A program made the position numbers and the translations under genes. The notes under the pieces are model-generated. The model was not told the DNA's origin, ran no database searches, and was given only the letters and a program-made list of their open reading frames with translations. From Siphonodentalium dalli (lineage: Eukaryota; Mollusca; Scaphopoda; Gadilida; Siphonodentaliidae): DNA of 64,000 nt. Location of the stretch: positions 71,339,980 through 71,403,979 of the forward strand of contig CP136063.1 in NCBI GenBank assembly GCA_032622095.1, given 5' to 3'. Of the stretch, positions 1,223-45,970 are shown in pieces; within the stretch, counting starts at the first letter, position 1, and each line of letters begins with the position of its first letter.

Positions 1223-1588
1223 CTACTCCTCAATGAGCATGTAGTAATCAAAGGTTAACGATGCACGAAATTCGCGTCTGTGTACATGAATGATTACCTT
1301 TGCGGGATTGTTGTCATATGTTCCATCGGCTGGGTTGACGTCGTCGTGTGGTTCTTCGGTTGAGTTTGCGTTATCGTAGGATTCCTCGGTTGAGTTGGCG
1401 TTATCATATGGTTCCTCGGTTGAGTTGGCGTTATCGTAGGATTCTTCGGCTGAGTTATCATATGATTCCTCGGTTGTGTTTGCGTTATCACAAGATTCCT
1501 CGGCTAGGATGACAGTTTCGTATGCTCCTTCGGTTGAGTTGGTATTGTCATACATGCCCTTGTCATCAATTTCATCATAGGCCACCCC
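1223..1588 (-). CDS. Gene A terminal exon: cytoplasmic tail with tandem YDN repeats
   Basis: On the minus strand the acceptor is ...CTTAACAG at 1591-1589 and the exon opens in phase 0, reading GVAYDEIDDKGMYDN. It continues 121 codons to the stop at 1223. The core is a roughly 10-residue unit NSTEE(S/P)YDNA repeated in tandem. Six sites keep Y-D-N, while two units have lost the tyrosine (CDNAN and HDDVN). YDEI, YETV and a terminal YYML add more tyrosines. Y-x-N is the established Grb2-type SH2-binding core, so this region is inferred to be a phosphotyrosine docking tail. The repeat lies in DNA as a 30-bp minisatellite, so copy number may vary between alleles. The last 30 residues are not repetitive. 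A shifted reading frame across the same repeats is a shadow. Confidence 0.65.
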   Translation of the reverse strand, partial: GVAYDEIDDKGMYDNTNSTEGAYETVILAEESCDNANTTEESYDNSAEESYDNANSTEEPYDNANSTEESYDNANSTEEPHDDVNPADGTYDNNPAKVIIHVHRREFRASLTFDYYMLIEE

Positions 1589-1938
1589 CTGTTAAGATTG
1601 ATTGATATATTGATTAAACTATCGTACTGTGTCCCTTCTGATATTCCTCTCTAAAATGTATATACATGTACCGTCGTCTGTCAGACTATTTGCATGAAAA
1701 CAATTTATTATCCGATCGGCAATACAATGGCAGTATAGGCCTACTATATTTCAATTATAATCGACACATGTCACTCTATTATATCATCGCTAGATAAGGG
1801 GAAAGGAATACGATATGTCGTTTGATATTAGCAAGGCATGTGACAAGGCCTTGCGTCGGTGACTACTTTCTAAATTGAAAAGAAGGGAAATAACAGGAAT
1901 ATATATATGTATCAACTACTCGAGAATTACCTTGATTT

Positions 1939-3231
1939 TAGAGTGTAGAGAGTCACTATGGGAGGCCTAATTCACATTTAATAATGAATTGCGCTTAAGC
2001 GCAATTGATTGCGCTTAAGCGCAAATACCACATATTGTGCTTAAGCTCAAATAGGCCATTTACACTTAAGCATAATTAATTACGCTTAAGCGCAATCAAT
2101 TGCGCTTAAGCGTAATTGTGACTACTATCTAACCTACCCATAAACTATTAGCATGACCTGGTGTATCACCTAGCAACACAACATGAGCATTGGGCTAATT
2201 TTGACCTGTACTCAACAGTCAAACTGTGAGTATGTGTTCAACAAGGAGAATCCCTAATTACATATTATCAGCATCCCTCTATCCAAAGAATTGATGTCGC
2301 CTTCCCGGAACTCTAGTAATGTTTTGTATGATGTTTTTAATGTATTTTTGCACAGATTTTAGCCTTTACTATGGTAATATCCTATACATGCATGCGGTGT
2401 CACTGCATGAGGGCTTTCTTATCTCATACAGTAATGCTCTATTTAATCGACTTCTTAACCACTTAACCACTTTTCAGGATTTAGTCAGAAATATGGCTTG
2501 TTGCCATTCATCGAAAAGCTCTCGACAGCTTTCCGATGAATGGCAACAAGCCATATTTCCGACTAAATCCTGAAAAGTTATCCATAATTCTGCTGTGGTT
2601 AAGGAGTCGATTAATTAGAGCATTACTGTATGGTTTACTTATTGACTTAAATCAGGGGGAAAAAACCCTATTTTCATATTATCAGCATCCCTGTCCAAAA
2701 AATGGTGTGTAATTACTGGAGCTTTGGTGTCTCAGTCCTGAAGCTCTAGTTTTTCTTATTAAATCAGCAGCTCTTGCACAAATCTATAGTATTTCCATGA
2801 TCATATAGTGTGAATGTGGTGTCACCGAGGGCTTGCTTCCCTCATATGGTGTGCCTGTATACTCGGAAATTGAAGAAAATCAATGTTGCCCCGACTAATA
2901 CAGAAAGTAATGCTATTGCAAGTAGCCCCAACTAATATATACCGAAGATAATATAATGCTATCACGAATCGCTCCAACTAAAACAGAAGGTGATACTATT
3001 GCGAGTCAGCCATTTTGATAAAGAAGTTGGGCTAGCTCCCTACCCAACCAAACCAATGAAACCAAGAAGTGACATGTCAATAGGAGTTAATGCTAAGTTA
3101 TGGAGAAACCTATTTATTCACCAGGGGTGTTTTGTTACATATAACCATGAATTGCGCTTAAGCGCAATTGATTGCGCTTAAGCACAATTAATTATTAAAT
3201 GTGAATTTGGCCTCCCATAAGTCACACTCTA
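1939..3231. mobile_element. 1.3-kb inverted-repeat element with TTGCGCTTAAGCGCAA palindromes
   Basis: The ends are inverted repeats of about 90 bp. They share TAGAGTGT, then TATGGGAGGCC, then TTCACATTTAATAAT, then two copies of the palindrome TTGCGCTTAAGCGCAA or close variants. A third block of such palindromes lies at about 2045-2120. The centre (about 2425-2637) folds into a near-perfect hairpin containing CAGGATTTAGTC and its complement. No transposase reading frame is visible, so it looks like a non-autonomous foldback or MITE-type element. It sits in the last intron of gene A. Confidence 0.65.
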
Positions 3232-5522: not shown

Positions 5523-5551
5523 CTCGTTGCCACCCATTTCATATGCCTCGT
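5523..5551 (-). CDS. Gene A micro-exon (29 nt)
   Basis: On the minus strand a good acceptor (TTTTATTTTAG) is followed by 29 nt and then a strong donor (GTAAGGCG). Entering in phase 1 completes an Asn codon and reads EAYEMGGNE, then ends in phase 0. This is exactly the phase change needed between the 8104-8058 exon (ends phase 1) and the tail exon (starts phase 0). It adds another tyrosine (AYEMG). It is short enough to be skipped by gene finders. Skipping it would break the frame. Confidence 0.55.
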
Positions 5552-8057: not shown

Positions 8058-8104
8058 TGATTTGCCGTTCGACCGTCCTTTGTTTCTCTTCACGCTTCCT
8101 TCTC
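8058..8104 (-). CDS. Gene A juxtamembrane exon (47 nt)
   Basis: On the minus strand, ...TTATTCGAAG precedes the exon and a strong donor GTAAGTAT follows. Entered in phase 2 it completes the Trp codon that ends the membrane exon and reads RRKREEKQRTVERQI, leaving in phase 1. A run of Arg and Lys directly after a hydrophobic helix is the expected stop-transfer signal of a type I membrane protein. A different frame is open across the same bases, but it would not follow the transmembrane exon in phase. Confidence 0.6.
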
Positions 8105-9770: not shown

Positions 9771-9948
9771 CATTTAATAAGGAACACTGCGAGTATAGAG
9801 TAGCAGACCAGAGCAATCAGGATGGTCAGCAGAGTGGCAACTAGAACTGTGGTTGAATCGTCATCGCCGTCGTTAATTATTTTATCCTCGTCCTCTTCAA
9901 TTATTATATCCTCGCCCTCTTCAGTTATGATATCCTCCTCCTCTTCAC
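9771..9948 (-). CDS. Gene A acidic stalk and transmembrane exon
   Basis: On the minus strand the acceptor is ...TTTTCGCCAG and the donor is GTAACTAC. It enters in phase 1 and exits in phase 2 (178 nt). The first 33 residues are almost all Glu, Asp, Ile and Thr, with an internal repeat (EEEEDIITEEGEDIIIEEDE). A hydrophobic helix of about 26 residues follows (TTVLVATLLTILIALVCYSI...). It ends in LIKW, completed by the next exon. This is a single-pass membrane anchor with an acidic membrane-proximal stalk. The gene B transmembrane exon has the same phase pattern. Confidence 0.7.
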
Positions 9949-10807: not shown

Positions 10808-10858
10808 CTGGTTCAAATTCGTAATCGTCATCTTCACAATACCCAACAGTTATAATTT
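10808..10858 (-). CDS. Gene A short ectodomain exon 2 (51 nt, phase 1-1)
   Basis: On the minus strand the acceptor is CTTTGTCGCTTCAG and the donor is GTATGTAATT. Phase 1 on both sides gives a Glu completed across the junction followed by IITVGYCEDDDYEFEP. It has one cysteine and an acidic patch that continues into the acidic stalk exon. It has the same length and phase as the 11426-11476 exon, so the two may be old duplicates or optional stalk segments. Confidence 0.55.
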
Positions 10859-11425: not shown

Positions 11426-11476
11426 CTTTTGTGAAATGTTGGAGGGGCCCATTACACTGGACATTGGCTATATAAC
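11426..11476 (-). CDS. Gene A short ectodomain exon 1 (51 nt, phase 1-1)
   Basis: On the minus strand the acceptor is TTCATTTTATAG and the donor is GTAATTCTCC. In phase 1 it reads (G)YIANVQCNGPLQHFTK. It has a single cysteine. Symmetric phase means it can be included or skipped without shifting the frame. Overlapping longer open frames on this strand run through the splice sites and are not better supported. Confidence 0.5.
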
Positions 11477-12850: not shown

Positions 12851-13171
12851 CTGAGTATACCAGTTTTATAACGTAATCATCCACGGGTCCTTTGGATAAT
12901 AGATCAACGACACCAGGCAACTCTGACGTTATCACTTCATCTGAACAGTGTGACGTCAAAATTTGCTGGCTGCCTTGCAACACGGTCAGACCTGACACAC
13001 AATCTTGACTACTAGTTGAACTAGAGATATGAGTCCGCGTGATTCTGGCACCTTGTAGAACGCAAGAGCATTCGGCTTCTTCGAGTGACCAGTTCGAACG
13101 GAGTATGAATACCTGTGGACTCGCTGGGTCTGTTCGAATCGAATATGTGCCATTCCGACAGAGCTCAATAT
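12851..13171 (-). CDS. Gene A CUB-like ectodomain exon
   Basis: On the minus strand the acceptor is ATTTCTTCTAG and the donor GTTGGTATAG. The 321-nt exon is phase 1 on both sides and encodes about 107 residues with five cysteines. It starts YIELCRNGTYSI, has CSCVLQGARI and SQDCVSGLTVLQGS in the middle, then SHCSDE, and ends DDYVIKLVYS. The spacing of cysteines, the D-C-x-S-G-L-x-V-x-x-G stretch and the closing beta-rich YVIKLVY recall CUB domains, but the match is weak and calcium-site residues are not obvious. It would form the folded extracellular part of gene A. Confidence 0.6.
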
Positions 13172-14055
13172 CTAGAAGAAATATGGACAATGTCAGTCTT
13201 AGTAAACTTCCAACACAGATGCTAAATATTAGTGGTATCTCGCTATGACTCTGAGAACATTTACACAGGCGATACGATACGATACGATTAATTTGCATAA
13301 ACACCAAGAAAGGCAGTATGCTAACAATACAATTAATAATAAAACAATAATTAATAAACAATTTCATGTGAACATGGCATGTCTAGCAGCATGTATTTTT
13401 ATTGGGTGATGGCAAGCATAATATTCATTCAGAACGCTTATCAAAGAAGCGCCGGATTATAGTGCTGCTTATTTCAGGATTATCACTTTTCATTATAACA
13501 TTAAATTTATGATCGTTTGATATTTTATTGAGATATCTGCAAATATATTATTTGGGTAGGGAATGCTGAACATTTTTTCGGAGACTATGTTTTATGTTAT
13601 GTGATTTGTTAAGTTCGTATTCAGTACGACATATTCTTTCACTCAGGTATCCAATTCAATTTTAGAAACCCAGAAGCACCCTCAATCTGGAACGTCGAAT
13701 AAATGTTGGGGCAAGAATAGATTAGGATTACATGTGTCACGAAATTCCTCAAACATACCATAACTTTTACATAATATATAGAAACTAAAAACTGTCTAAA
13801 TCTACACTGTTATCACATCCATAAGATATGATAAAGCTTTGATACTTTCGACATTCCAGATTATATACTTAGTGTGGTCCATTCTACTTGATATATGTGC
13901 CTCATAGCTTTTATCGTGTCCGAAACATCGACATTGACGAGTGTTCAAAATTAAACGTTTATAAACACTCACCAATACTTTTCACACAATCTGAAACAAA
14001 AAGAACTAGCATGTAACTTGTCCGAGAGAACATAGGATAGTTAGACAAATTAAAT
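13172..14055. other. Gene A first-intron segment, nothing recognised
   Basis: A+T-rich sequence without convincing exons or repeats. A (GATAC)n-like run lies near 13269-13288. Confidence 0.35.
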
Positions 14056-14247
14056 AAGTCGCTCTTCAAAAGCTTTCGGCCTTAGGTCTTCTTCGGTTCA
14101 TATTATTCAGACGAAATCACATGATGGCATTCAGATAAACATACAAGTAACAACATTGCTATTTGTATGTTTATCTGAATGCCATCATGGGATTTTGTCT
14201 GAATAATATCAACTGAAGTAGGCCGAAAGCTTTTGAAGAGCGACTTA
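14056..14247. repeat. Long hairpin (foldback)
   Basis: Near-perfect inverted arms of about 85 bp begin AAGTCGCTCTTCAAAAGC and end GCTTTTGAAGAGCGACTT, separated by a short loop near 14140-14160. TTAA lies close to both ends. No coding capacity. Confidence 0.7.
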
Positions 14248-14459
14248 ATTAATTCGTCAGCCTACATGGTCCCTCATCTCCTGGACCATCCATACACTAC
14301 TAACATAGTTAGAGTTTCTGTGTTCATTGGTCCAGGATCAAGTTCCATTCCCCTGTGGTTGTACTGATAGTGTTAAATGTATTGGTAGGCACAATACGTA
14401 GAAGATATATTTTACATATAGTATACGAACATTCAACCATAATTAGCGAGATCATATCC

Positions 14460-14800
14460 TTAAAGGGGTACTGTACACTAAATCCGACCATTTATGGGAC
14501 CATCTCCTTTTATACACAACAGAATATATGCAACAAATGAATGAATTTGAACCATGGACTACTGCAAAATACACGCATATGCTCTGTAAATGATGCAAAC
14601 AACATGGTAATTATAATGAAAATGAATAAATGCTGGCCTCATAAATTGATTTTCATTTTAATTACCAGGTTGTTTCCATCGTTCATAGAGCACACTAGTG
14701 TATTTTTCACTAATCCGTGGATCCAAATTCACTCATTTGCTACATATATTATATAGATGGTCTCACAAATGGCCGGATTTAGTGCACTGTACCCCTTTAA
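14460..14800. mobile_element. TTAA MITE, 341 bp
   Basis: Flanked by TTAA at 14460-14463 and 14797-14800. Terminal inverted repeats of about 45 bp begin AGGGGTACTGTACAC, with CCGGATTTAGTGCACTG in the right arm. The interior is also partly self-complementary (ATGGTAATTATAATGAAAAT and ATTTTCATTTTAATTACCAG). It lies in the first intron of gene A. Confidence 0.7.
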
Positions 14801-15464
14801 TTGTTTATGACTAGTCACAATCATTGTATAATCGAGAGATGATCTGATAAGTGTCACGAGTAAGTAAACATAGTGTGATATAAGTTATGAACATGGGTAT
14901 ATTGATGTATCAGACCTTATTTGGTCACATGATACTCCAAATGTTGGAATAACTACCTGTGTCTGAGAAAAGATTCACTCCCGCTTAAACCTTGAAACCC
15001 TGAACATCTACATATTCTGCTTACCGGCAGAATACTTTCATGAATATAAAAGTTATCAAACACTGGACTTATCCTTGTTCCTGTGCGGCCGAATCCATAC
15101 TTAACCACTGGACAACGGGGCGATTTGAACTACGTGAGTAGTTTGTTAACAATGAAATAACAAAACAGAGCGAGTTAAATTGCGAAAATCCTGAAAGTGT
15201 GCATGAACTGTCCCCATATTAAGACGCACCGCGGTTTGAAAGATGAAATCATCCTGCTTTTTACACCACTGTCTGGTTTTGTTGATAAAAAAAATCGATA
15301 AATACGTTAAATAATCTTATGCGGACGCTATATGCAACACAGAGACATCTTGATGTCAAAATTTAACCCAAAAAAACCTGTCCCTCTTTCTCTTCATTTT
15401 ACCATGCAACATTGAAGGTCGTTCTTTGCTAAGTCCTATTCCGGCTGCAACATATCCTCACAGA

Positions 15465-15806
15465 AATACGCACATAATCGACGAATAATGTGAAATAGGT
15501 ACATAATGTGATTATTTGATTCTGAAATAAGCAGACAATGGAATCTTACCCGTTATTTCGTTCCTAGCACACAGTGAAAACAAATGTTAAAGATCGTACA
15601 CCCGAACAGTCGTGAGTTGGCATGTTTGTTTCATTTCCCGCACATAATCAGCTTAGAATCACCTCACCTCATGAGTCGATAATGTGATTAAAATGATCTC
15701 ATTTTCAGCACATTAACGACTCCAAATGAGGCTATTCTAAGCAAATTATCTACCTAAACTAAGTTTATTATAAGCAGATAATGTGCGGATTTTTGAGAAA
15801 ACAGGC
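15465..15806 (-). mobile_element. Dispersed ATTATCTGCTTA element, copy 1
   Basis: Read on the minus strand it begins CCTGTTTTCTCAAAAATCCG and has many CACATTATCTGCTTA-type words in both orientations. Full or partial homologues lie at 50758-51125 and 33429-33590. The shared TAACCCGTTATTTCG/CGAAATAACGGG segment supports common origin with the 50.8-kb copy. Confidence 0.55.
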
Positions 15807-16059
15807 TGCTATTCACGATATGATAATACCAAGAATGTTTGTCTTATTGCTGTGTGAACTATGGCAGGATGCGTTTGTGTATTTCATGAACACATCTGTA
15901 ATACATCATTTTGAGGCTCAAATGAGCTATGTCCATTTAATTGTAACTTTCCGTTAATAAACATTCACTCGTGTGGATAATAAATTTCATTCGAAAAATT
16001 ACATTTATAGGAACAAACATTAAATCTGAACGCACAATCGAATATACATGAATACTCAC

Positions 16060-16150
16060 ACCCATCGCACGTGCCAAGCTGAGACAGAATTATCGTGACG
16101 TGTAGAAAGAGAATTACGTTCAGCAACACATGGTGGTCCGAACAAGTCAT
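16060..16150 (-). CDS. Gene A first coding exon: signal peptide
   Basis: The ATG at 16150-16148 (minus) opens a 30-codon exon with a hydrophobic core (LLNVILFLHVTIILS) after a short polar start, then QLGTCDG. The donor TGTGAGTATT ends it in phase 1, matching the CUB-like exon and producing a Tyr across the junction. This is a typical signal-peptide exon of a type I membrane protein. An adjacent weaker donor one base earlier would break the frame with the next exon. Confidence 0.6.
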
Positions 16151-16181
16151 CGCAGGATACCGCGTTATACGTGTACACGTA

Positions 16182-16187
16182 TATATA
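16182..16187 (-). promoter_or_regulatory. Weak TATA-like candidate upstream of gene A
   Basis: A TATATA run lies about 35 nt upstream of the gene A ATG on the minus strand. If real, the 5' UTR would be very short. Such runs are common in this window, so this is only a candidate. Confidence 0.15.
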
Positions 16188-16308
16188 ACAATTCAAGTCA
16201 TTTCGAAATACGTGACGGCTGACGGATACGTCCTGACGTTTCTAATGAATATTCCAGTCTTTCATTCTTCAGAACGCACAATCGGTTTTTGGTTTTATTC
16301 CAAAAATA

Positions 16309-16500
16309 TTGTTGTTGTTTTTGTTGTTGTTGTTGCTGTTGTTGTTGTTGTTGTTTCTGTCGCTGCTGTTATTGTTGTTGTTGCTGATGTTATTATTTTT
16401 GCTATTGTTTGTACTGTTATTATTTTTGCTGTTGTTGTGGTTGGTGTTGTTGTTCCTCTTTGTTATTGTTATCCTTCTTGTTCTGTTGTTGCTTTGTATT
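16309..16500. repeat. Degenerate (GTT)n microsatellite
   Basis: About 190 bp of imperfect GTT/CAA repeat with interspersed GCT and ATT triplets. All frames look open and low-complexity (poly-Leu, poly-Val, poly-Asn), which explains the apparent open frames here. It lies about 160 bp upstream of the gene A start codon. Confidence 0.85.
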
Positions 16501-16954
16501 ATAACACCGTAGTAGAGATGATCTTGTGTTAAATCCAACGACGGTTAAACTTGTTCAAAAACATTTCATAGCGTAAAAGTGTCTCAAAACATTAGTTAAT
16601 TAACAAGTGGCATCGTGCGAACTTACTGGAGTTTTTTTCATCTTCGGCCATGATCCGACTATTTGGATGTTATTATGCTGATATTTATGTGCATGCCTGT
16701 TGATAAGTAAGCGGTCGTTATATTTTGCCATTGCGTGCATCGGTTTCGCTTCGTTGCACACGGTTCAAAGAGTCACGCTCCATGATGTCCTCGCTCCGTT
16801 GAATGTGTTCGCTCGTCCGCGAGTCATGCATGGTATATGATTATTAAAACTAGTCAAGTATAAGGACAGAAGCATTTCGCAGGTTGACATTTTTGTTGAT
16901 CATGATCAAAGTTGAAAAGATGTCCTTGATTTGAATGACTCAGCTATATCAAAT

Positions 16955-17391
16955 TTAAAGGTACTCAACCCGATAAAACTCCTCTCAATTACTATTTCAA
17001 TGGCTTCGGGGGGCAAAAATATTTGATTCGAGTCGAGGAAGTCACCCATCAAAGCTCAGATTTGTTAGATATCGATTTTAGAAATCTATTATTTTTCATT
17101 ATCGGCAATACTATCTGGCCCAGAACTCAGTCAAAATTGTCTGTTTGAATAGATTTGGAGAACACATCCAGAGCAGATTACGGCAGTTAGCAGTACTCAT
17201 CTCGAGTTTATAACAAATTTCAAAAATCAATATCTAATAACTCTGAGCTTTGTTTGATGGGTTCCTCGACTCGAATCAAATATTTTTTACCCCCAAAGCC
17301 AAAGAAATAGTAATATAGGACCCTCCGATCGGATTGTTGTTGTTGTAATCTGTTGAGATGGGGACCCTCTTTACGGGTTGAGTACCTTTAA
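16955..17391. mobile_element. TTAA MITE, 437 bp
   Basis: TTAA lies at 16955-16958 and 17388-17391, with terminal inverted repeats AGGTACTCAACCCG and CGGGTTGAGTACCT. Sub-terminal arms also pair (CAATTACTATTTCAATGGCTT with AGCCAAAGAAATAGTAA; TTGATTCGAGTCGAGGAA with TTCCTCGACTCGAATCAA). It lies in the divergent intergenic region. A fragment resembling its right end is at 7980-8037. Confidence 0.7.
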
Positions 17392-18934
17392 ACAACTCTC
17401 GCTTCAAATTGAACTGATGAGCATGCTATAGATACATCGATATAACTACACAATACATGTGCGAATTTTATTAGTTATTTTTTAAAATGAATGTAGTCTG
17501 AGTGTGTTTCGTTGAAGGCTGTAGCGCTGTGGCTGTTGGACACATGTTGTGAAGCGGTTCTCAATAAATGCCATACAACGGCCACAGCGACATACCTTTC
17601 AATAAAATACTCAAACAACGTTCATCCATACATTTATAAAAGAGCATGATCTGGCTGCTATCTGTCCGTATGTCTGTCTGGATTTTTCTCCCAGACTGCT
17701 GGTCCGATTTCAACCAAATTTGGTGTGATGATTCTGGGCACCCTGTCGGGATGTAATAAAGGCGTTATTTTTTTATTTTTTTATTTTTTAATTTGGATTA
17801 AAAAAAATTCATTAAATAAATAAAATAAAAACACAAACAAAATTAAATAAGCTCACTATCAGCCTATTGAAGCTATTTCAGAATCAAATAAGTCCAATAT
17901 AAACCTATGCGAATATCTAAGTCCAATATGAACCTATTTGCACGAGCATATGTTGCAGCACCAGATGTAGGGCTCATTATATATGTGTTTTCACTGTGGC
18001 CCGCCAGCCATATGTGTGTCCAATATGAACCTGTTTGCATGAGGATATATTGAAGTATAATAATAAATGTCAAGTGCACAAAGTTTTGAGACTCTTTGAA
18101 CAAATGGGTGAGGGCACATCAAATATAGCAATTACCTTATCTCCAGAATGAGCTATTTTCGGATTTGATGATGATGCTAAACAAATGGATAGCTTTCTAA
18201 AATTCCTCCTAATGTTTGCTCGATATCAAATGTATCACGCTAAACTGTCCGGAATTCATCCAAACCTTACTTCTCTAAAGAAAGATCTAGAAAATTATCG
18301 CTCGCTACTTTCAAAATTCAAATACGTCATTGTATTTATGTATTGATAGATTGTTTATGTATAATTTTGATATTATTAAATGAAAAGCTTCTTTTAAAAA
18401 AGAGTAACGTCACGATTGGTGGAAACTGCCAGGGTCATTCATATACTTCAGATGTATCACGTGACCATATCCCCCGATGTTTCGCGCATGAACGTTTCCT
18501 TAAACCCTGCTGCCACAGGTGACGGAGGACATGAGGCTCCACCGTTTCGGATGTGCAGGTGTGGGAATCAATTATATCTGCTCAAAGGGATATGCCATTT
18601 TCCAGAGACTAGTGGCAGATTCGTATAAAGAGATATAAAGAAATCAAGATGTGTGAAAGAAAGAAAGAATCCCTGAAAGAAAAAACAACCACCAAAAACT
18701 CATCTGAGGAAAGAAAGAAGATAAAGGCTGAAAAGAAAAAGAAATAATATGTTTGGATCATTTTCATCAATTGTCATTGTCGTGTTAAATATGTCATCCT
18801 CTCACATGACCCCTCCAAATATAACCAACGTGGGTTGAAGGAAAGTGCAAACTGCCTATTCAAAACCTCCCGCGCTCCTCTCCAAAACCACTTTTAAGAC
18901 TAGAAACATTTGATAGTTAATCATATTGTTATAA
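17392..18934. repeat. Intergenic region between genes A and B, part 1
   Basis: About 17645-17760 shares CTGTCCGT...CAACCAAATTTGGTGTGATGA with 4805-4870. About 17840-18060 is a diverged member of the AAGTCCAATATGAACCTA dispersed family. About 18650-18745 is purine-rich (GAAAGAAAGAA). No exon was recognised. Confidence 0.45.
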
Positions 18935-19703
18935 ACACCTAAAAAAAAGAACGTTCCCCCTAATATATTCGGTAATATTTTACGAGATATTGGATGGATT
19001 TTGATGAAACTTTTCACAAACGATTTGTGGTACCAGAGACATCAAGTGTGCTAAGCACTGTGATGTGAGGTGATCTATAGCTGAGTGAGCACGAATTGAC
19101 TGGAAGAGGGGCACTTTTCAAAAGTTGCAAACACACAGGTAGAGTGATCATAGTCATTTCGCTGTGCTTTGGTCTCCCACTTCTCGCAGGGACTTGGAAC
19201 ATCCTTATTTGTTAGTACCTCAATGACCTACATAGTTGGAAATATGGTTTACTGAAAAATGGCTTCAAAGAGACTGATTTCAATAACTATTGTGTTGTTC
19301 ACGGCATGAAACTTCTGAAAGGTGTCATTCCAAAGGAATGTGGTTAGACTGAATGGCCTAGCTGGGCATGCAGCGGGCATATTGTGTCCCGAAGATGACA
19401 CGCATGTTATCGTGGACTCAGTGTCACTTTTGGACCACATTTACAGCCATTAACAACTTGTGTGAACAATGGAACAATGGAGTGACTGCCCACTCTTGCG
19501 TTAGTGTTTTGCAACTTTTGAAAAGCATCCCTCTTCCATTCAATTCGTGCCCAGCCGGTCATAACACAACTCACAGGACGGTGCCTAGCACAGGTTGTGT
19601 CTCAGATACCACTAAATATTTGCGTAAAGTTTCGTCAAAATCGATCCAATATCTCAGAAAATATTACCAAATATATTAAGGGGGGCTTTCTTTTTTTGAG
19701 GTG
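18935..19703. mobile_element. Foldback element with arms of about 200 bp
   Basis: The left arm starts CACCTAAAAAAAAGAAC and the right arm ends with its diverged complement TTTTTTTGAGGTG. Inside, CTAATATATT(C/T)GGTAATATTTT, ATATTGGAT and AACTTTTGAAAAG blocks are inverted between about 18960-19130 and 19500-19690. The central 200-bp segment shows no coding signal. Confidence 0.6.
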
Positions 19704-20204
19704 TTTAGTCACAACCGGGTGTGGGGACATAGTACAGATGTTTTCTTGGTTCACTTGGATTCGGGAGAAGATTGATCATGTGGAGGATATCATCATGAAT
19801 AAGTGTCTAATTGTTGAAGTCCTTCAATTGGGACTAAACAGTTACAATGTACAATGGAAATGGGAAAGGTAATTAAGATTGACCTATCAGCACCTATGGT
19901 AATTTGATTAGTGTGCAAAATACTCACCATGCATCAACTGTTCAGGACAGCTATTAAACATACCCCTTTCACAATAAGCTATCTAATTCCATTGAGAACA
20001 GAATTTATTTCATCAAATTATTAATTTTTAACCCTTTTTACATGTATAAACTAAATGGATTCTCACACTCAGTTTATACATGTATCCATTGTAATTAATA
20101 GGAAAATGTCAATGACACTTTAGCTCAACTTGGGATGGAGTTATTTTTTTGCTGAGCAATTAACAGAATGATAAAGAAGGAAAGTAAACTTGAGGTCAGC
20201 CCGA

Positions 20205-21235
20205 AAATCCGTATGACGTGTGGTGATGATCGGATGAGGGATATGGTATGTTGGGAGCGCCAAAGGCTTTAGTCATACAAAGAGTATATTCCTAGATGGC
20301 ATTTCAACGAATTTCGGTCAAAATAGGAGGCTCCCACCAAGAGGTCACCCGAAGATATATGAAGTTGGTGTGCCAAAGGATTTAGTCATACAAAGAGTAA
20401 TATCCAAGATGGCTCCCGGCGGCCATGTTTTTCATCGAAATTTGTTCAAATTCATAGCTCTTGTCTAGGGTGATTCTAAACATGCCTGTAATTTCAAACT
20501 AATTCTTCATTAAAGGCGGACTGCAGGGTGTGCCGATGGATTCAAATTTGAAATCAAAGATGGCTGCTGTTTTTCTTAACAAATTTTGGTCAAAATAGGA
20601 GGCTCCCATCTAGAGGTCACCCTGAATATCCATATAAAGTTTGGTGACGATCGGATGAGAGATGTGTACCGAAGGATTTAGTCATACAAAGAGTAAATTC
20701 CAAGATGGCCACTATTGGCCATGTTTTACCACAAATTTCGGGCAAAATAGGAGGTTCCCATCTAGAGATCACCCCGAAGATCGATATGAAGTTTGGTGAT
20801 GATAGGATGAGGAATGTGGTATGTAGGTTGTGCAAAATGATTTAGTCATGCAAAGAATAAAATCCAAGATGGCTATCGGCGGCCATGTTTTTCATCGACA
20901 ATCGTTCAAATTCGATAGCTACCATCTAAAGGTGATCACAATCAATCCTGCCTGCAAAATTAAAAACTTATCCGGCCATAAATACGGGCTGTAGGGTGTG
21001 CCGATGGATTCAAATTTGAAATCCAAGATGGCTGCGGCCATGTTTTTCATCGAAATTCGGAAAAAAATCGATATCTCCCATCTATATGTCACCCTGAAGC
21101 TACAAGTTTTGTGAAAATCGGATAAGGGATGCGGTCTGTAGGGCGTGCCGAAGGAAATTGTTGACGTTCGGCTAGACGCACACACCGACGCACGGACGAC
21201 GGGCGCCAACACATGGCAATAGCTCAAACTTTACG
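20205..21235 (+). repeat. Diverged tandem 'CCAAGATGGC' repeat region
   Basis: Five or so diverged units of about 170-230 bp repeat GATCGGATGAG(G)GAT, TTTAGTCATACAAAGAGTA, CCAAGATGGC, GGCCATGTTTTTCATCGA and GGTCAAAATAGGAGGCTCCCA. The array ends with a G+C-rich tail (ACGCACGGACGACGGGCGCC followed by ATGGCAATAGCTC). Tails of this kind are familiar from interspersed repeats of marine invertebrates. No open frame is convincing. Confidence 0.7.
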
Positions 21236-22517: not shown

Positions 22518-22557
22518 ATGCGCATCCTACCGTTTTTGTGTGGAATAATCACCCATG
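22518..22557 (+). CDS. Gene B first coding exon: start of signal peptide
   Basis: The ATG at 22518 opens a 13-codon exon (MRILPFLCGIITH) ending in phase 1 at donor GTTAGT. An in-frame stop lies upstream. Spliced to the next exon it continues VAVVSCGF, giving one uninterrupted hydrophobic stretch of about 17 residues, consistent with a short signal peptide cleaved before the first domain cysteine. A nearby out-of-frame ATG at 22511 reads MQNAHP and is not hydrophobic. The exon is short and the donor only fair, so this start is less certain than the later exons. Confidence 0.45.
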
Positions 22558-26045: not shown

Positions 26046-26391
26046 AATCTTCACCACTGATCACCGTGAATAACTCTCCTAAAATAAATCGCCACGGTGT
26101 TGAATGTTTTGCTTATCGTTCACTATTTACGTGCTGTATGTAAACAAACTCTCGGATCGCGCAAGTGTGTTTTGTGGATGATATCATCACATTCATACTA
26201 TCATTATACTATATTATTAGTATACTATTGAGGAAATTTTATTATTTGGCGACTTTAATTTCTAAATTATAAGCTATAACGAAGGTCATCCGCGCCTTTA
26301 AATATATGTACACCTAACGATTATTGGCAATATTGCCTAAATTAAAGTTAGATATATATATATATAATTCTTCTTTTTGTTTTGTTTACAG

Positions 26392-26655
26392 TTGCTGTAG
26401 TTAGTTGTGGCTTCACGAAGCGCGATTGTCTTGAGCGTAATTTTCTAGAGCACAAATACATTCAATGCATAGATCCATACGTCATCGAACTGTTCACCGC
26501 GACCTGCTCGGGATTTCTCACGAGAGACTGTGACACTGACGGAATGTTGTTGACCTACCTAAAGGCTACCTGCGACGGTAAACGATCGTGTGTAGTCGAG
26601 CGGCCTGGTATCAGTGTCACGTTGTGGACCATATGTGTGACATACCAATGTACAG
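26392..26655 (+). CDS. Gene B SUEL/galactose-lectin-like ectodomain exon
   Basis: Acceptor TTTTGTTTACAG and donor GTGAGAAAG frame a 264-nt exon, phase 1 on both sides. It encodes about 88 residues with nine cysteines, from VAVVSCGFTKRDCLE to TICVTYQCT. The second half (ATCDGKRSCVV ... C-x3-Y-x-C) matches the conserved C-x-G-K-x-x-C-x-V and final Y-x-C of SUEL-type rhamnose/galactose-binding lectin domains. The usual YGR motif near the first cysteines is not evident, so sugar binding is uncertain. As the only folded ectodomain in gene B it would be the ligand-recognition part. Confidence 0.7.
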
Positions 26656-28854: not shown

Positions 28855-29109
28855 GTAATGACAGGAGAACACACCCGACTACTGATACGTCTATATCACA
28901 GAGGACAGAAGATATGAAGAGTACGACCATATCAGTTCCACACCAGACTACCGCCACAACTGAAATAACGCAGATTGTCTGGGTCAAGTCAGTGCGCACA
29001 TCACTTGTAGTCGGAGCAAATAGCACCAGCGACAGACATATGTTGAATATGTCGACAGTAGCATATCGACCCACAACGGCGAAGACTACTGATGAACAAA
29101 GTCAATCTG
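28855..29109 (+). CDS. Gene B Thr/Ser-rich stalk exon
   Basis: Acceptor ATCCATTTTAG and donor GTACATTTA, phase 1 on both sides (255 nt). The 85 residues are rich in Thr and Ser (HPTTDTSISQ, KSTTISVPHQTTATTEIT, YRPTTAKTTDE), with possible N-glycosylation sites NST and NMS. It contains no cysteine. This is consistent with an O-glycosylated mucin-like spacer between lectin-like domain and membrane. Phase symmetry means it could be skipped without changing the frame. Confidence 0.65.
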
Positions 29110-33741: not shown

Positions 33742-33832
33742 GTATAGCATATAGTGTCATCGGGGTGATTATTGGCGTTGTCGTACTATCAACATGTTGT
33801 GGTTGCTTTGTGTGGAACAAATTAATCAAAAA
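33742..33832 (+). CDS. Gene B transmembrane exon
   Basis: Acceptor TATATTTCAG and donor GTAAGTTC frame 91 nt entered in phase 1 and left in phase 2. The reading is a hydrophobic helix IAYSVIGVIIGVVVLSTCCG followed by CFVWNKLIK, completed to Lys by the next exon. The small-residue GxxxG-like pattern and a flanking Cys cluster are typical of single-pass helices. Phase and position match the gene A membrane exon. Confidence 0.75.
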
Positions 33833-34201: not shown

Positions 34202-34368
34202 GAGAAATGAAGAATCTCGGGTGCCTCGTTTGCAAGGCGTCGAAAATATGGAGTATTATGGGATGGCGCGATTGTATGGGCCAGGACGTATCATAGATGG
34301 CCTGCGTGCTTCACAACCATTGACGGAGGACCAGTGTCCAGATTTGAAGAAACCGGAATCCAAAACGG
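34202..34368 (+). CDS. Gene B membrane-proximal cytoplasmic exon
   Basis: Acceptor TTTTTTTTCAG and donor GTGAGTGGG frame 167 nt, phase 2 to phase 1. Translation starts RNEESRVPRLQGVENMEYYG and runs to DLKKPESKT. YYGM is a Y-x-x-M motif of the PI3K p85 SH2 type, and RLYG adds another tyrosine. The splice sites are strong. The next exon in the model is 7.5 kb downstream, beyond the tandem 1.6-kb repeats. Confidence 0.7.
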
Positions 34369-36282: not shown

Positions 36283-36667
36283 CCGAAAAGTGATGAACCT
36301 ATTGCAGTCATTCGGGAGTTAGTCGGAATTCCAAAAAGTGCAGTGGTCGTTTCCCAACATAGCTAAAAATAGCACAATGAATCGTCAGTAAATTTATAAT
36401 TTCACACAGTGCTCACAACAATAGAGATTATTACAACTAATTAAACAATAAAAGCATACGTGAATAGTGCATAATTTATCAATAATACCTAGCAAGGAGA
36501 ATAGAAGTATGTCCAATAATTTCGACAGTTTAAAGCGTGTGGGGAAAATAGAGACATTATGCGATGTGTCGTCATGTAGAAATTATTTATAGCGAAGATA
36601 ATTTACCACAGAGCCATTGTCGCCAGACGTAGTACTGCGTTAGCTGTCGAGTGTGTGTTTTAATCAG

Positions 36668-36747
36668 AAATATATCAGTACCCACCAGAGTTGAAGTCTG
36701 GATATATGAAGGTTCCACTGAAAACATTTGTCTCATCCACTTTGTGA
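36668..36747 (+). CDS. Possible alternative terminal exon of gene B (repeated at 38286-38365 and 39902-39981)
   Basis: In each tandem unit an acceptor (GTGTTTTAATCAG) precedes 80 nt that, entered in phase 1 (the exit phase of the 34202-34368 exon), read (E)IYQYPPELKSGYMKVPLKTF and end VSSTL-stop. That would give an alternative short tail with three tyrosines and a C-terminal S-T-L of PDZ-ligand type. A second phase-1-compatible candidate in the same unit (acceptor TTTACTCCAG at about 36829) reads DHENTNCSQLQKCSN and also ends in a stop. Either could be chance. Confidence 0.22.
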
Positions 36748-39700
36748 TGTTTAAGTGTCGAAAATATGACGATGACCAAGAGAATTGCAAGAGCAAAGAA
36801 ATTATGTTCGCATAGTGTTTACTCCAGACCACGAAAACACGAATTGCTCACAACTACAGAAGTGTTCAAACTCTGTCGACGTACACTCAGCAATGGATTG
36901 TTCGTGTCCCGTTTGCTATCAATTCAAAGTACCGACACTCAAGTCTGAGAAACAATTTTGATATCCAGATACTCAGAACATTGCTGGACCTCGGTTGTCA
37001 ACTTGAACGTCGGACTCGCACACTTTCTGTGGTTGTGTCCGCATGGAAATGTGTTTTGGCTGTACTGAGACAGAGAGTTAGAACAATGTAATCAGTCACT
37101 CGTAATTATATTCAAAGAGACAAATCTTGATTCAGTGCCAAACATAAAATGGACACATCTACTCAAGTTGAGCTAGTTGCTCCAAAACAATCGCCGAAAT
37201 CACTTAAACATTTTGAATCTCAGACATAGCAGTTAAGCTTTGAAGGTTCCGGTTGGGTGTGAGACAACAATCATTGTCACCTACCCGACTATCAACCTGA
37301 TGCATTGATAAATGCTAAATTCATCAAATACTACATATTCGATGAGTAGGAATAAGTGGCTGCAGATGGAGAAAGATATTATTGAAGTGACGGTGTCTGT
37401 GAGGGTCATAGATAGTTATATGTATCACATCCGTCGGGGATAACGTGAGAAAGCAATTAATGTGAAGATACTTGGACTATTTCGATGTGAATCATTTGTA
37501 AATTGATAAATGCTTTTATCAGGGGCGCCGGAAGAGGTGGGCAGAGGGGCAGCTGACCCCCTGCCCTTGACCAAGGGGGGCGAGCGGGGGCAGGACTTGC
37601 CCTTTTTCTGAAGACAGAAAATGCTTTTTGTGTTTTTAATCTCGTGTTTTTACAGCAAAATGTGACTTATTTGGTCCAAATACCACCAATTTCACAAGGA
37701 ATATTAATTTTGTGTCAATTTTATCACAAAACGGCCATAAAAACCGACAAATAGGGATTTTTGCCGCAATGAATTTATTGTTATTTTCCCGAGTTTGCAG
37801 GGGGGGGGGGTCGGAAAAATATTTCAGGCACGTATGGCATTTTTTCCCTTTCGATCATTTTTCGTACCCCCCCCCCCCCCCCCCCCGAAAAGTGATGAAC
37901 CTATTGCAGTCATTCGGGAGTTAGTCGGAATTCCAAAAAGTGCAGTGGTCGTTTCCCAACATAGCTAAAAATAGCACAATGAATCGTCAGTAAATTTATA
38001 ATTTCACACAGTGCTCACAACAATAGAGATTATTACAACTAATTAAACAATAAAAGCATACGTGAATAGTGCATAATTTATCAATAATACCTAGCAAGGA
38101 GAATAGAAGTATGTCCAATAATTTCGACAGTTTAAAGCGTGTGGGGAAAATAGAGACATAATGCGATGTGTCGTCATACTGAATGCAAAGCATGTAGAAA
38201 TTATTTATAGCGAAGATAATTTACCACAGAGCCATTGTCGCCAGACGTAGTACTGCGTTAGCTGTCGAGTGTGTGTTTTAATCAGAAATATATCAGTACC
38301 CACCAGAGTTGAAGTCTGGATATATGAAGGTTCCACTGAAAACATTTGTCTCATCCACTTTGTGATGTTTAAGTGTCGAAAATATGACGATGACCAAGAG
38401 AATTGCAAGAGCAAAGAAATTATGTTCGCATATAGTGTTTACTCCAGACCACGAAAACACGAATTGCTCACAACTACAGAAGTGTTCAAACTCTGTCGAC
38501 GTACACTCAGCAATGGATTGTTCGTGTCCCGTTTGCTATCAATTCAAAGTACCGACACTCAAGTCTGAGAAACAATTTTGATATCCAGATACTCAGAACA
38601 TTGCTGGACCTCGGTTGTCAACTTGAACGTCGGACTCGCACACTTTCTGTGGTTGTGTCCGCATGGAAATGTGTTTTGCCTGTACTGAGACAGAGAGTTA
38701 GAACAATGTAATCAGTCACTCGTAATTATATTCAAAGAGACAAATCTTGATTCAGTGCCAAACATAAAATGGACACATCTACTCAAGTTGAGCTAGTTGC
38801 TCCAAAACAATCGCCGAAATCACTTAAACATTTTGAATCTCAGACATAGCAGTTAAGCTTTGAAGGTTCCGGTTGGGTGTGAGACAACAATCATTGTCAC
38901 CTACCCGACTATCAACCTGATGCATTGATAAATGCTAAATTCATCAAATACTACATATTCGATGAGTAGGAATAAGTGGCTGCAGATGGAGAAAGATATT
39001 ATTGAAGTGACGGTGTCTGTGAGGGTCATAGATAGTTATATGTATCACATCCGTCGGGGATAACGTGAGAAAGCAATTAATATGAAGATACTTGGACTAT
39101 TTCGATGTGAATCATTTGTAAATTGATAAATGCTTTTATCAGGGGCGCCGGAAGAGGTGGGCAGAGGGGCAGCTGACCCCCTGCCCTTGACCAAGGGGGG
39201 CGAGCGGGGGCAGGACTTGCCCTTTTTCTGAAGACAGAAAATGCTTTTTGTGTTTTTAATCTCGTGTTTTTATAGCAAAATGTGACTTATTTGGTCCAAA
39301 TACCACCAATTTCACAAGGAATATTAATTTTGTGTCAATTTTATCACAAAACGGCCATAAAAACCGACAAATAGGGATTTTTGCCGCAATGAATTTATTG
39401 TTATTTTCCCGAGTTTGCAGGGGGGGGGTCGGAAAAATATTTCAGGCACGTATGGCATTTTTTCCCTTTCGATCATTTTTTTTACCCCCCCCCCCCCCCC
39501 CCGAAAAGTGATGAACCTATTGCAGTCATTCGGGAGTTAGTCGGAATTCAAAAAAGTGCAGTGGTCGTTTCCCAACATAGCTAAAAATAGCACAATGAAT
39601 CGTCAGTAAATTTATAATTTCACACAGTGCTCACAACAATAGAGATTATTACAACTAATTAAACAATAAAAGCATACGTGAATAGTGCATAATTTATCAA

Positions 39701-40755
39701 TAATACCTAGCAAGGAGAATAGAAGTATGTCCAATAATTTCGACAGTTTAAAGCGTGTGGGGAAAATAGAGACATAATGCGATGTGTCGTCATACTGAAT
39801 GCAAAGCATGTAGAAATTATTTATAGCGAAGATAATTTACCACAGAGCCATTGTCGCCAGACGTAGTACTGCGTTAGCTGTCGAGTGTGTGTTTTAATCA
39901 GAAATATATCAGTACCCACCAGAGTTGAAGTCTGGATATATGAAGGTTCCACTGAAAACATTTGTCTCATCCACTTTGTGATGTTTAAGTGTCGAAAATA
40001 TGACGATGACCAAGAGAATTGCAAGAGCAAAGAAATTATGTTCGCATATAGTGTTTACTCCAGACCACGAAAACACGAATTGCTCACAACTACAGAAGTG
40101 TTCAAACTCTGTCGACGTACACTCAGCAATGGATTGTTCGTGTCCCGTTTGCTATCAATTCAAAGTACCGACACTCAAGTCTGAGAAACAATTTTGATAT
40201 CCAGATACTCAGAACATTGCTGGACCTCGGTTGTCAACTTGAACGTCGGACTCGCACACTTTCTGTGGTTGTGTCCGCGTGGAAATGTGTTTTGCCTGTA
40301 CTGAGACAGAGAGTTAGAACAATGTAATGAGTTACTCGTAATGATATTCAAAGAGACAAATCTTGATTTAGTGCCAAACATAAAATGGACACATCTACTC
40401 AAGTTGAGCTAGTTGCTCCAAAACAATCGCCGAAATCACTTAAACATTTTGAATCTCAGACATAGCAGTTAAGCGTTGAATGTTCCGGTTGGGTGTGAGA
40501 CAACAATCGTTGTCACCTACCCGACTATCAACCTGATGCATTGATAAATGCTAAATTCATCAAATACTACATGTTCGATGAGTAGGAATAAGTGGCTGCA
40601 GATGGAGAAAGATATTATTGAAGTGACGGTGTCTGTGAGGGTCATAGATAGTTATATGTATCACATCCGTCGGGAATAACGTGAGAAAGCAATTAATGTG
40701 AAGATACTTGGACTATTTCGATGTGAATCATTTGTAAATTGATAAATGCTTTTAT

Positions 40756-41874: not shown

Positions 41875-42072
41875 ATTTATCAGGTCAACTGAGGTGCGAA
41901 GAGAACGAGTTAAATGCAGATTACCAAAATATTTCAAGAGATTCAAATGCATGTGGATATATAAACGTCGGCGCAGTGATTTCTACCTCTAATGTTGATC
42001 TGAATAATGATGGTAATGCAACCAGCTCTCAGTTGTCCACATCGGCTGCAAACTCAAAGCACAGACCGCTTG
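41875..42072 (+). CDS. Gene B tail exon 6 (YQN/YIN module, original copy)
   Basis: Acceptor TATTCTCTTTAG and donor GTGAGTATAC, 198 nt, phase 1 on both sides. It reads (D)LSGQLRCEENELNA and then the module DYQNISRDSNACGYINV, followed by GAVISTSN and a Ser/Asn-rich stretch to KHRPL. The two Y-x-N sites are Grb2-type SH2 ligands in known systems. Y-x-x-I, eight residues, Y-x-x-V also approximates an ITAM. The module recurs in the next two exons. Confidence 0.7.
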
Positions 42073-42730: not shown

Positions 42731-42883
42731 ATTACCAAAATAGTACAAGGGATTCAGATGCATGTGGATATATAAACGTCGGCGCAGTGATTTCTACCTC
42801 TAATGTTGATCGGAATAATGATGGTAATGCAACCAGCTCTCATTTGTCCACATCGGCTGCAAACTCAAAGCATAGACCGCTTG
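42731..42883 (+). CDS. Gene B tail exon 7 (duplicated, shortened YQN/YIN module)
   Basis: This is the copy-2 counterpart of exon 6. Its first 15 codons and original acceptor are deleted. The sequence now immediately before it is TTTCTGACTTCAG, a usable acceptor that yields phase 1 again, so the exon (153 nt, phase 1-1) reads DYQNSTRDSDACGYINV and runs in frame to KHRPL and donor GTGAGTATAC. No stop or frameshift has accumulated. It could be spliced in to add a second tyrosine pair, be optional, or be a silent relic. Confidence 0.5.
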
Positions 42884-43839: not shown

Positions 43840-44308
43840 TTGAATGGCCCACTTAATTTTCGAGTCACCGATTTTGTTTATAGTAGTGCCTTGATATATG
43901 GTTTTAATAAAAATTTATGCCATAAAATATTATTAAAATACTATAATTCATTAACATTTGAAAGGTTTTTGTCTCAGAAAGTGGCCATAGGGAAATAGCA
44001 AACAGCCGAAATCATAGAAAGATTAATAAAAAGAATGCAACAGAATTCAAACTCGAAATCTATTTTCAATGAAAGTGGAATAACTTGATATCTTATAATA
44101 TAGAGTTTTTCCCATTCCATTGAAAATAATGACACTTGAGCAGGGAACACCAAGTCAGTATCTCAACAAAAACAACATGTTCACAGTTTATTTCACTGGA
44201 TATGTTGACAATACAATGTTTTGGAGCTTCCTCTTTCAAATGGTATATACTATGGCATATATTTTATCTAAAATTATCTGGAGGTTCGAAAATCAAGTGG
44301 GCCATTAA
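43840..44308. mobile_element. TTAA MITE with internal hairpin, copy 2
   Basis: Inverted homologue of 519-999. Ends are AATGGCCCACTT and AAGTGGGCCATT, with TTAA on the right (44305-44308) and a mutated TTGA on the left. The internal hairpin (AATGAAAGTGGAATAACT...GGGAAT-type) lies at about 44065-44130. Confidence 0.6.
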
Positions 44309-45626
44309 TATAATCTGATAACGATTTTCCTTCAGCTCGGAAAATATAAAGTGTTCGATTCTTTGTTATTATATTCCTGATATGGTGGGGATTAAGAGCG
44401 TGTGTCTGACTGTCTCATCTGTGTGTGTCTGAGAAATTTGCTATGAATTCGAGGGGTCGTGAGAAAATTTACACATTGAGGTCCCAACAAAAAATTTACA
44501 GCCATTTTGCTACCCACCCACCCTTTTTGTGTAAATTTTTTTATTTTGTTCCGCCTGATTTTTTTGGACCCACCCCCTAAAATAAGAAAAAGCCAAATCA
44601 AACAGAATCAAAGGTAAGTTTTAAATTGGTCCGTTTCCGGCAGATTCCAAGTGTTCAAACAATTGAAAAACTATCAACGGTTATGATGTTATTTTCGACA
44701 TTGAAACATACATTTTGAAATAAAAAGTGTTTTATTCTACAGTATGCACAGATATTGTGAGGTAATATTTATAGTGCCAATAAGCCAACATTGTGTTTAA
44801 TTTTTACATAAATAGTCCAGTTACTAATTAATGACTTCTTCACTGTTGTTCCCAAAAAGGTGCCACCGACCATCATATCAGAACACCTTATAGCCATACC
44901 TGCAATGACAGTTATATAGTATATAAGTATCACTCTTTGGAGCCAAATAAACAGGCTGGCATGTTTATTTTTTAATTTGAGGTATTTTGTTAGCCAGCAC
45001 TCTGCAGCACTAGTATTATTTGGTCATTAGACATGCCAGAGTGAAAATGCCAGCACTATCAGGCACTATTCAATATTAATTTGAGGTGAAATGCAAACCA
45101 GCACTCCTATTCAGTCATCACTTTTATTTGGCACCAGAGAGTGCTTTATCTTATACCTACATATGTTCTTAAGTGTTGGTTAAGGTCATAATCTATGTTA
45201 GACCACATTTATTAGTGAAAACAACTTAAAACAATGTCCATAATGTGGGTTGAAAAAAATAATTTCAGGCCTCTGAGATGCACCCACCCCGCCCGGTATA
45301 GGTATGTTTTTGGAAGATCTCCCTTGTATTACTTATATCTTATACCTACCCTGTTCCTAAGTGTCTGTAAAGGCCATAACCTGCCTTAGAACACAATTAT
45401 TAATGAATATATTAGAAAACAAGGGCAAAAATGTGAATAGAAAAACATTTGCACAAACTCATTTTTTCGGGCATCTTCGGACCCACCCACCCCGGCCCTG
45501 TATGATAAAACTTTTGTGCGCCCCCCCCCCCCCGATGAATTTGGATAGTTTTCACGAGTAAATGAAGCTTTAGTGTTCGGAATACATGTAGGTACGCTTA
45601 TAGTATAGCTTCTGTTTTCATTTTAG
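44309..45626. other. Gene B last intron, remainder
   Basis: Contains two or three A/C-rich repeat fragments with ACCCACCC(A/C)C words (about 44505-44580, 45280-45300, 45478-45500) and a poly-C run at 45521-45533. No exon was recognised. Confidence 0.35.
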
Positions 45627-45970
45627 GTTCACCACGTGTGACAAATATCGATAAGAAACAGATCATTATTACGGATTACGAAAATATTCAAAGAAATAAC
45701 TCAGATACTTGTGGATATGAAAACATGGCCGCAGTGATTTCTCCTTGTCATCTTGACATGAGTACTAATTCGTGTGGATTTACTCCAAACTCAGAGTATT
45801 CAACAATAGCAGCAAACTCGGAACACAGAAACAATGGCCTTTCTCCCAAAAATGGCGAAACCGTATATGATAATGCAAAGGACGTGAGCAGCAATGATAC
45901 CGACATTTATGAAGACACGGCAGATGATGATGCATTGTACGAATTTGTGCAAAACTCTCAATGCATATGA
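45627..45970 (+). CDS. Gene B terminal exon: YENI/YENM tail
   Basis: Acceptor TTCATTTTAG, phase 1 entry, 114 codons to TGA at 45968-45970. It reads (G)SPRVTNIDKK, then DYENIQRNNSDTCGYENM, then AAVIS, a clear homologue of the exon 6 and 7 module. Further on are EYSTI, VYDNA, IYEDT and LYEFV. YENI and YDNA fit Y-x-N. YENM fits both Y-x-N and the PI3K-type Y-x-x-M, as in known co-stimulatory receptor tails. The acidic C-terminal part (DIYEDTADDDALYEF) suits tyrosine-kinase substrates. Function is inferred from motifs only. Confidence 0.75.

Follow-up and report, generated by a model that had tools for sequence, protein, structure and literature searches.

Two divergent genes of a scaphopod mollusc may encode surface proteins with repeat-built arrays of Grb2-type tyrosine motifs

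Our subject is a pair of genes, A and B, in a 64,000-nucleotide stretch of the genome of the scaphopod Siphonodentalium dalli (the window, G000:C3:71339980-71403979, on contig C3 of an assembly of 2.23 Gb in 9 contigs). Exon 1 starts at window position 14033 on the minus strand in A and at 22518 on the plus strand in B, the head-to-head arrangement of the original prediction. As judged from the sequence, A and B are a real gene pair under constraint, and we put at roughly 0.55 the probability that both are working genes, transcribed divergently, whose products are small single-pass proteins of type I at the cell surface with multivalent Grb2-docking tails. The most interesting new point is that repeat and exon copy set the number of the predicted docking sites, which differs between two natural copies of the locus.

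These natural copies are the one in the window and a second, inverted copy of the A/B locus on contig C1 (196.15-196.21 Mb). When the modelled exons of both genes are compared between the two, 12 synonymous and 5 nonsynonymous changes are found (ratio of nonsynonymous to synonymous differences per site, pN/pS, 0.12; Fisher P 2.9e-5). The array exon of A is left out of this comparison because its repeats are not alignable base by base. That two genes are present here, as first proposed, is supported by this constraint, strongly for A (9 synonymous changes over 199.7 sites and 2 nonsynonymous over 694.3 sites, P 4e-5) and more weakly for B alone. The exons also carry fewer changes than expected, with 6 in B against the 15.1 expected from its introns (P 0.007), and 10 in A against 19.7, tail exon t4 and the array being left out (P 0.013). 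By exon, we count 7 synonymous and 2 nonsynonymous changes in the ectodomain exon of A, 1 and 0 in that of B, and no synonymous but 2 nonsynonymous changes in the stalk exon of B.

The C1 copy is the only other match in the genome to the ectodomain exon of B (100% protein identity), and for the ectodomain exon of A, which it matches at 98% amino acid identity, all further matches are distant relatives. The block common to C3 and C1 is broken by insertions; it starts at window position 9 and extends at least as far as 52,663, and a probe of window positions 56,000-57,500 still finds a 99% match on C1. Over 43,243 aligned bases the identity is 97.9%, with segments at 87-99%, and the divergence is uneven, being 6.7% at 250-1290 and about 1% across B. 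The C1 copy could have arisen by segmental duplication, or it could be a haplotig put in the wrong place. If it is a haplotig created by the assembly, the difference in site number described below would be allelic and not of paralogue level. Both the overall and segmental identities and the 99% match at 56,000-57,500 are compatible with alleles of an outbred animal. Nevertheless, the copies belong to two different large contigs, are oppositely oriented, and their similarity ends abruptly at window position 9, and we regard a haplotig as a serious possibility that is on balance improbable.

The predicted tails carry six Y-x-N sites in A and seven in B, the same numbers as first counted, against 1.1 and 1.5 expected from composition shuffles (P 0.0001 and P 0.0003). 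The extra sites named at that time are found as well, namely YDEI and YETV in A and YENM and YYGM in B, the last two giving B two YxxM sites (P 0.011) where A has none. The SH2 domain of Grb2 prefers pYxN and that of the phosphoinositide 3-kinase (PI3K) subunit p85 prefers pYxxM, where pY is phosphotyrosine. Both proteins are thus predicted to be small type I membrane proteins with arrays of Grb2-type sites, with two p85-type sites in B only. Basic residues come right after the helix in both, which fits a cytoplasmic tail, and the architecture proposed for B (a signal-like peptide, one ectodomain exon, one helix and a long tail) is recovered.

The same tails could be read as mainly inhibitory or switch-like, recruiting SHP2 or SHIP, with the Y-x-N array being secondary. 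Immunoreceptor tyrosine-based inhibitory, switch and activation motifs (ITIM, ITSM and ITAM) follow generally known patterns. Using [SIVL]xYxx[ILV] for ITIM and TxYxx[VI] for ITSM, both of which are loose motifs, we find two ITIM-type sites in A (VAYDEI and SPYDMV, shuffle P 0.017), and one ITIM-type (SEYSTI) and one ITSM-type site (TDYENI) in B. Neither ITAM (YxxL/I-x6-12-YxxL/I) nor NPxY is present in A or B. A precedent for inhibitory tails is offered by the allorecognition candidates of Botryllus and Hydractinia, which bear ITIM and ITAM or hemITAM (PMC12065747; this and the other articles are cited here from excerpts). Against such tails, the numbers in B are near chance (P 0.43 for ITIM, P 0.08 for ITSM), and Y-x-N sites outnumber these motifs roughly threefold (6 against 2 in A, 7 against 2 in B). 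We think a mainly inhibitory role quite unlikely.

The Grb2-type arrays appear to have grown in two different ways. In A they lie in one exon (1298..1588, minus strand, phase 0-0) that encodes YDEI, YETV and a 30-bp in-frame tandem repeat. Here the repeat counts 9 units and 6 YDN, on C1 it counts 13 units and 9 YDN, and it is free of stops in both. The units that have no Y-x-N number 3 of 9 and 4 of 13, respectively. Pooling the 19 ten-residue units of both copies, which omits three eight-residue units, Tyr is present in 15, Asp in 17 and Asn in 14, with a pN/pS of 0.5; among a subset of 17 units it is 0.41, a value to be read with the fact that the subset was picked partly by the Asp itself. 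These values suggest a moderate constraint on the units and are no proof of use for each site. A genome search with the array as query, in which 150 of 211 candidates were scored, returned 12 places, three of them in the two copies of the locus and nine at E>=0.002; of these nine weaker matches, three (L021-L023) are minisatellite-like frames.

In B the unit is an exon module, DYxN followed by GYxN, present three times. Exon t2a (41875..42072, plus strand, phase 1-1, acceptor in the top 6.7%, unchanged in C1) encodes DYQN and GYIN and is related to both other modules. Exon t2b (42731..42883, plus strand, phase 1-1) is its tandem duplicate with the same two motifs, and the terminal exon t3 (45627..45970, plus strand) encodes DYEN, GYENM, YDN, YED, YEF and the stop, with 99% amino acid identity in C1. 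At 7 of 153 nucleotides t2a and t2b differ, which makes five amino acid and two silent changes, and both DYQN and GYIN are kept in each despite the five residue differences. Exon t3 matches the t2 copies at E about 5e-5, and in a genome search with the B tail (all 12 candidates scored) the six matches are all tail exons of the two copies of the locus.

From these comparisons, most Y-x-N sites arose by duplication and not as independent events. The array exon of A, its stalk exons x1 and x2, and t2a, t2b and the stalk exon of B are phase-symmetric, so skipping any of them keeps the frame, and splice isoforms of A and B may exist. The number of sites thus looks adjustable, by repeat copy in A and by exon modules in B. 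A history of duplication is also what would be seen if the tyrosines were not used for signalling at all, A and B being surface glycoproteins with disordered, acidic and Asn-rich tails whose motifs rode along on a coding minisatellite and on exon duplications. In favor of this are the duplicate origin of most sites, the array units that lack Y-x-N in both copies and the near neutral change between t2a and t2b. It accounts less well for the Y-x-N sites of B being kept with varied x (Q, I, E and D), for the enrichment of Y-x-N in both genes of the pair, and for two B modules that differ at five residues yet both retain DYQN and GYIN. Tails that do not signal seem to us unlikely.

If the tails do signal, we propose that ligand-induced clustering of the A and B receptors would allow a Src/Syk-type kinase to phosphorylate their tails. 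Through pY-x-N, the phosphorylated tails could then engage several Grb2 at once, and B, unlike A, would also recruit PI3K p85 at YENM and YYGM. Grb2-SOS bound in this way would cross-link the tails and activate signalling through Ras/MAPK and to actin. Site number would track the 30-bp repeat copies in A, 6 here and 9 in C1, and the exon modules in B, where two of the three are skippable internal exons of phase 1-1. Phosphorylation, binding of Grb2, p85 or ligand, and any immune role are all conjectural steps of this scheme. The wider proposal, that A and B form a receptor pair with genetically set valency in which a minisatellite and skippable duplicate exons vary the Grb2 sites, and that this is an independent LAT-like invention with non-Ig ectodomains, is tentative and we would not expect it to hold in full.

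Several points weigh against the reading of A and B as working genes with multivalent docking tails. Both gene models were built from genomic sequence alone. For B taken by itself the 3 synonymous and 3 nonsynonymous changes are not significant (P 0.13), and the ratio for A is slightly flattered, since t4 was recognised through its conservation. Leaving t4 out, A still shows 8 synonymous and 2 nonsynonymous changes. The constraint on any single motif is weak, as 4 of 22 array units have lost their Tyr and 7 of 22 are without Y-x-N, and with five amino acid against two silent changes, t2a and t2b are near neutral with no clear constraint between them. The excess of Y-x-N also becomes weak once the repeats are collapsed, with 3 sites in A (P 0.018) and 3 in t1 plus t3 of B (P 0.039). 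There may also be no second locus, if what lies on C1 is a misplaced haplotig. Lastly, a terminal exon of A was not found beyond t4 when 20 kb of C3 was compared with about 11 kb of C1, which places the C-terminus outside the model.

Looking at known systems can help to place these proteins. Among the papers that the literature searches listed, mostly a part of all those matching, no title or opening of an abstract describes a closely similar architecture. LAT has nearly no ectodomain and no signal peptide, and carries cysteines at the inner face of its helix. The likeness of A and B to LAT, LAB and LAX lies in a single helix and a tail with several Grb2-type Y-x-N sites, for which binding in A and B is predicted, and in B the cysteines at the inner helix face add to it. 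The difference is that A and B each have a signal-like exon and a Cys-rich ectodomain exon. Vertebrate lymphocytes feature multivalent docking of Grb2 by LAT, and in a model of LAT valence governs its aggregation (PMC3291652). Ascidian genomes are reported to have no LAT homologue, and Botryllus to have neither LAT nor SLP-76 (PMC12065747). If an invertebrate pair unrelated to LAT did come by a LAT-like tail through repeat expansion, it would show how signalling scaffolds of this kind arise, and since site number differs between near-identical natural copies, the effects of valency could be tested directly.

Among invertebrates, the fester/co-receptor pairs of Botryllus and the Alr genes of Hydractinia are similar in being adjacent receptor genes with tyrosine motifs in their tails. 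In Botryllus such genes are allorecognition candidates, and alternative splicing swaps their tail motifs (PMC12065747). The Botryllus co-receptors differ by having Ig and sushi domains with ITIM or hemITAM, whereas A and B have small ectodomains, no Ig by Pfam, and Y-x-N arrays. EVA-1/C21orf63 and latrophilin resemble B in carrying a rhamnose-binding lectin (RBL) or RBL-like domain on the outside of a membrane protein, and for the RBL domains of receptors it is argued that their ligands may be noncarbohydrate ones (PMC2430599). The same source gives EVA-1 two RBL domains, while B has one divergent RBL-like exon with no Pfam hit. The R3 receptor tyrosine phosphatases share a Y-x-N tail site, also predicted in Ciona, acorn worm, sea urchin, an annelid and a sponge (PMC5336234), but they have FN3 repeats and a phosphatase domain, neither of which Pfam finds in A or B. 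The amphioxus FrLRR is likewise a surface receptor of an invertebrate, with links to Grb2 and to phagocytosis (PMC10199209), with the difference that its ectodomain consists of folate-receptor and LRR parts and its anchor is predicted to be glycosylphosphatidylinositol.

The domain labels first given to the ectodomains are weak. Pfam scans of both proteins return no family, the ectodomain of A has no CUB hit at E<=10, and phmmer searches of both ectodomains against PDB sequences give 0 hits at E<=10. A had been described as CUB-like. This label does not survive an hhalign comparison to seven CUB exons of the genome, as free shuffles reach its score in 192 of 300 cases and Cys-fixed ones in 179 of 300. 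The domain is also absent among the 150 CUB places scored in the genome (of 296 candidates), and its CUB identity is unproven. Its cysteines 5, 35/37, 58 and 76 are kept in three family members with a spacing that resembles that of CUB domains, and AlphaFold run without an alignment gives mostly strands at a predicted local distance difference test score (pLDDT) of 45.4. One relative, at C1:226.856-226.858 Mb, has 31% identity over the domain and is split by an intron, and another at C2:187.714 Mb is weak (E 0.027); both have cysteines in common with A. No array tail was seen, by eye or by filter, beside these relatives in the stretches fetched.

The SUEL-like label given to B is marginal. It is supported by hhalign against three SUEL exons of the genome (P 0.02, the score being equalled in 3 of 300 free shuffles and in 7 of 300 Cys-fixed ones), and it is not supported by any Pfam hit. 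The domain is not among the 8 SUEL places of the genome (all 12 candidates scored), and its AlphaFold model without an alignment has a pLDDT of 36.5; the models of both ectodomains are of too low quality to inform on the fold. RBL domains have a PDPCPG motif and a lysine in loop2, the lysine being missing in some receptor RBL domains (PMC2430599). The B domain is without the PDPCPG motif and reads GISVTLWTICVTYQC at that place. The idea of ectodomains swapped on a shared signalling plan also fails to find support, as the juxtamembrane segments of A and B align no better than shuffles (P 0.09, 0.79 and 0.11). All that the two genes have in common here are a basic stretch after the helix and intron phases, from 1 to 2 in the transmembrane exon and from 2 to 1 in the next one, and their tails might conceivably go back to one ancestor.

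Some weak Pfam matches, all below curated cut-offs, were taken as chance. In a scan of eight exon fragments these were Thoc5 (E 0.006) and CDC45 (E 0.57) for the A tail, DUF7484 (E 0.036) for the B stalk and TM_ErbB1 (E 0.72) for the B helix. In a scan of four proteins they were DUF7484 for B (E 0.77) and matches of two other members of the A-domain family (E 0.10 and 0.13). Elsewhere in the genome, two blocks of opposite orientation at C7:9.69-9.93 Mb (plus) and 10.56-10.74 Mb (minus) contain about 90 of the 150 listed CUB-exon matches (296 candidates), by position a large CUB gene cluster or an inverted duplication. At C1:165322334-165324260 (minus) a CUB exon is found 1.4 kb from a SUEL exon on the same strand, possibly in one gene with both true domains.

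The exon chains were assembled with a generic metazoan splice-site matrix of our own and a scan for phase-compatible exons; splice ranks are percentiles among the AG/GT sites across the span of each gene. As a control of the scan, candidates scoring >=8.8 number 4 of 77 on the strand of A and 0 of 285 across four control strand regions, and the accepted exons x1, x2 and the micro-exon of A are among these four.

All exons of A are on the minus strand. Exon 1 (13973..14033, ending in phase 1) encodes the signal peptide MFSRTSYMLVLFVSDCVKSI, with 0 of 61 differences to C1. It is the best of three candidates with an ATG, a hydrophobic stretch and a donor (13200-25000 minus) and ties with a shorter start at 14012 with an identical donor, so its assignment is moderately certain. 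It is followed by the ectodomain exon (12851..13171, an open frame of phase 1-1 with a five-Cys domain, CUB-like by eye only) and the stalk exons x1 (11426..11476, phase 1-1, acceptor in the top 0.4% and donor in the top 0.5%) and x2 (10808..10858, phase 1-1, top 3.8% and 0.2%). The exon at 9771..9948 (phase 1-2) encodes an acidic stalk and the transmembrane helix, with the hydrophobic segment TVLVATLLTILIALVCYSILAVFLI and then basic residues in the chain. The basic juxtamembrane exon (8058..8104, phase 2-1, acceptor in the top 8.1%) has 0 differences to C1, and a 74-nt variant of it reaching 8031 is possible. A 29-nt micro-exon encoding EAYEMGGNE (5523..5551, phase 1-0, top 0.3% and 0.1%) is identical in the C1 copy and leads to the array exon.

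The first description gave A a chain of 1134 nt, which we could not reproduce. Its last exon ends at the donor at 1298, and the stretch 1297-1223 is read as intron because it follows the donor AAAG|GTAATC and its frame is lost in the C1 copy. A further exon that had been overlooked, t4 (41..197), encodes VSPYDMVDVV... with SPYDMV and a two-unit repeat, and has 1 synonymous change in 156 nt between the copies, compared to the 6.7% divergence of its neighbour at 250-1290. This makes nine exons and 1186 nt, open throughout. Since the chain continues past the window edge, the coding total is at least 1186 nt. The shared block stops sharply about 30 bases past the t4 donor (window 9, C1:196212811), and the two copies of A may thus have different C-termini. 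Outside the block beyond t4, C3 and C1 have only short matches, 33-152 nt at 75-88%.

The chain of B came out as proposed, with eight exons on the plus strand that sum to exactly 1512 nt with compatible phases and encode 503 amino acids and one terminal stop. Exon 1 (22518..22557, ending in phase 1) holds the start of the signal peptide, MRILPFLCGIITH, and completes the 1512-nt total; it is the better of two candidates listed (13500-26300 plus) and has 0 of 40 differences to C1. The SUEL/rhamnose-lectin-like ectodomain exon (26392..26655, phase 1-1) has the signature C-DGK-x-SC ... VTYQC. The Thr/Ser-rich stalk exon (28855..29109, phase 1-1) is the least certain, with weak splice sites in the top 14% and 9%; these are the two exceptions among 13 scored sites of B, the other 11 all ranking within the top 7%. 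The transmembrane exon (33742..33832, phase 1-2, top 1.3% and 0.5%), with CCGC at the inner face, and tail exon t1 (34202..34368, phase 2-1, top 0.1% and 0.4%), with YYGM, are both unchanged in C1 and precede the three modules.

These chains would be wrong if the tail exons, or the B stalk and signal exons, belonged to other genes or to alternative ends. The weak splice sites of the B stalk could point that way, as could the 7.5-kb intron between t1 and t2a with its 1.62-kb tandem repeat, and the dependence of the helix-to-array link of A on two small exons (47 and 29 nt). On the other side, all phases agree, the chains as modelled stay open in each copy wherever the two align, and the micro-exon has the highest splice score of the modelled exons of A. 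We consider misjoined models very doubtful. The repeat in the t1-t2a intron has about three tandem copies at window 36633-40700, and its three window stretches match one C1 stretch.

Two other features of the window were noted. A 293-residue open frame at 24951-25832 on the minus strand has a CPLCG...H...C-type motif and by eye resembles the end of a retrotransposon reading frame. At 59015-59462 a tandem repeat has open frames on both strands (CTPGWYLHPRLVFAPQVGI-like) and is by eye a minisatellite.

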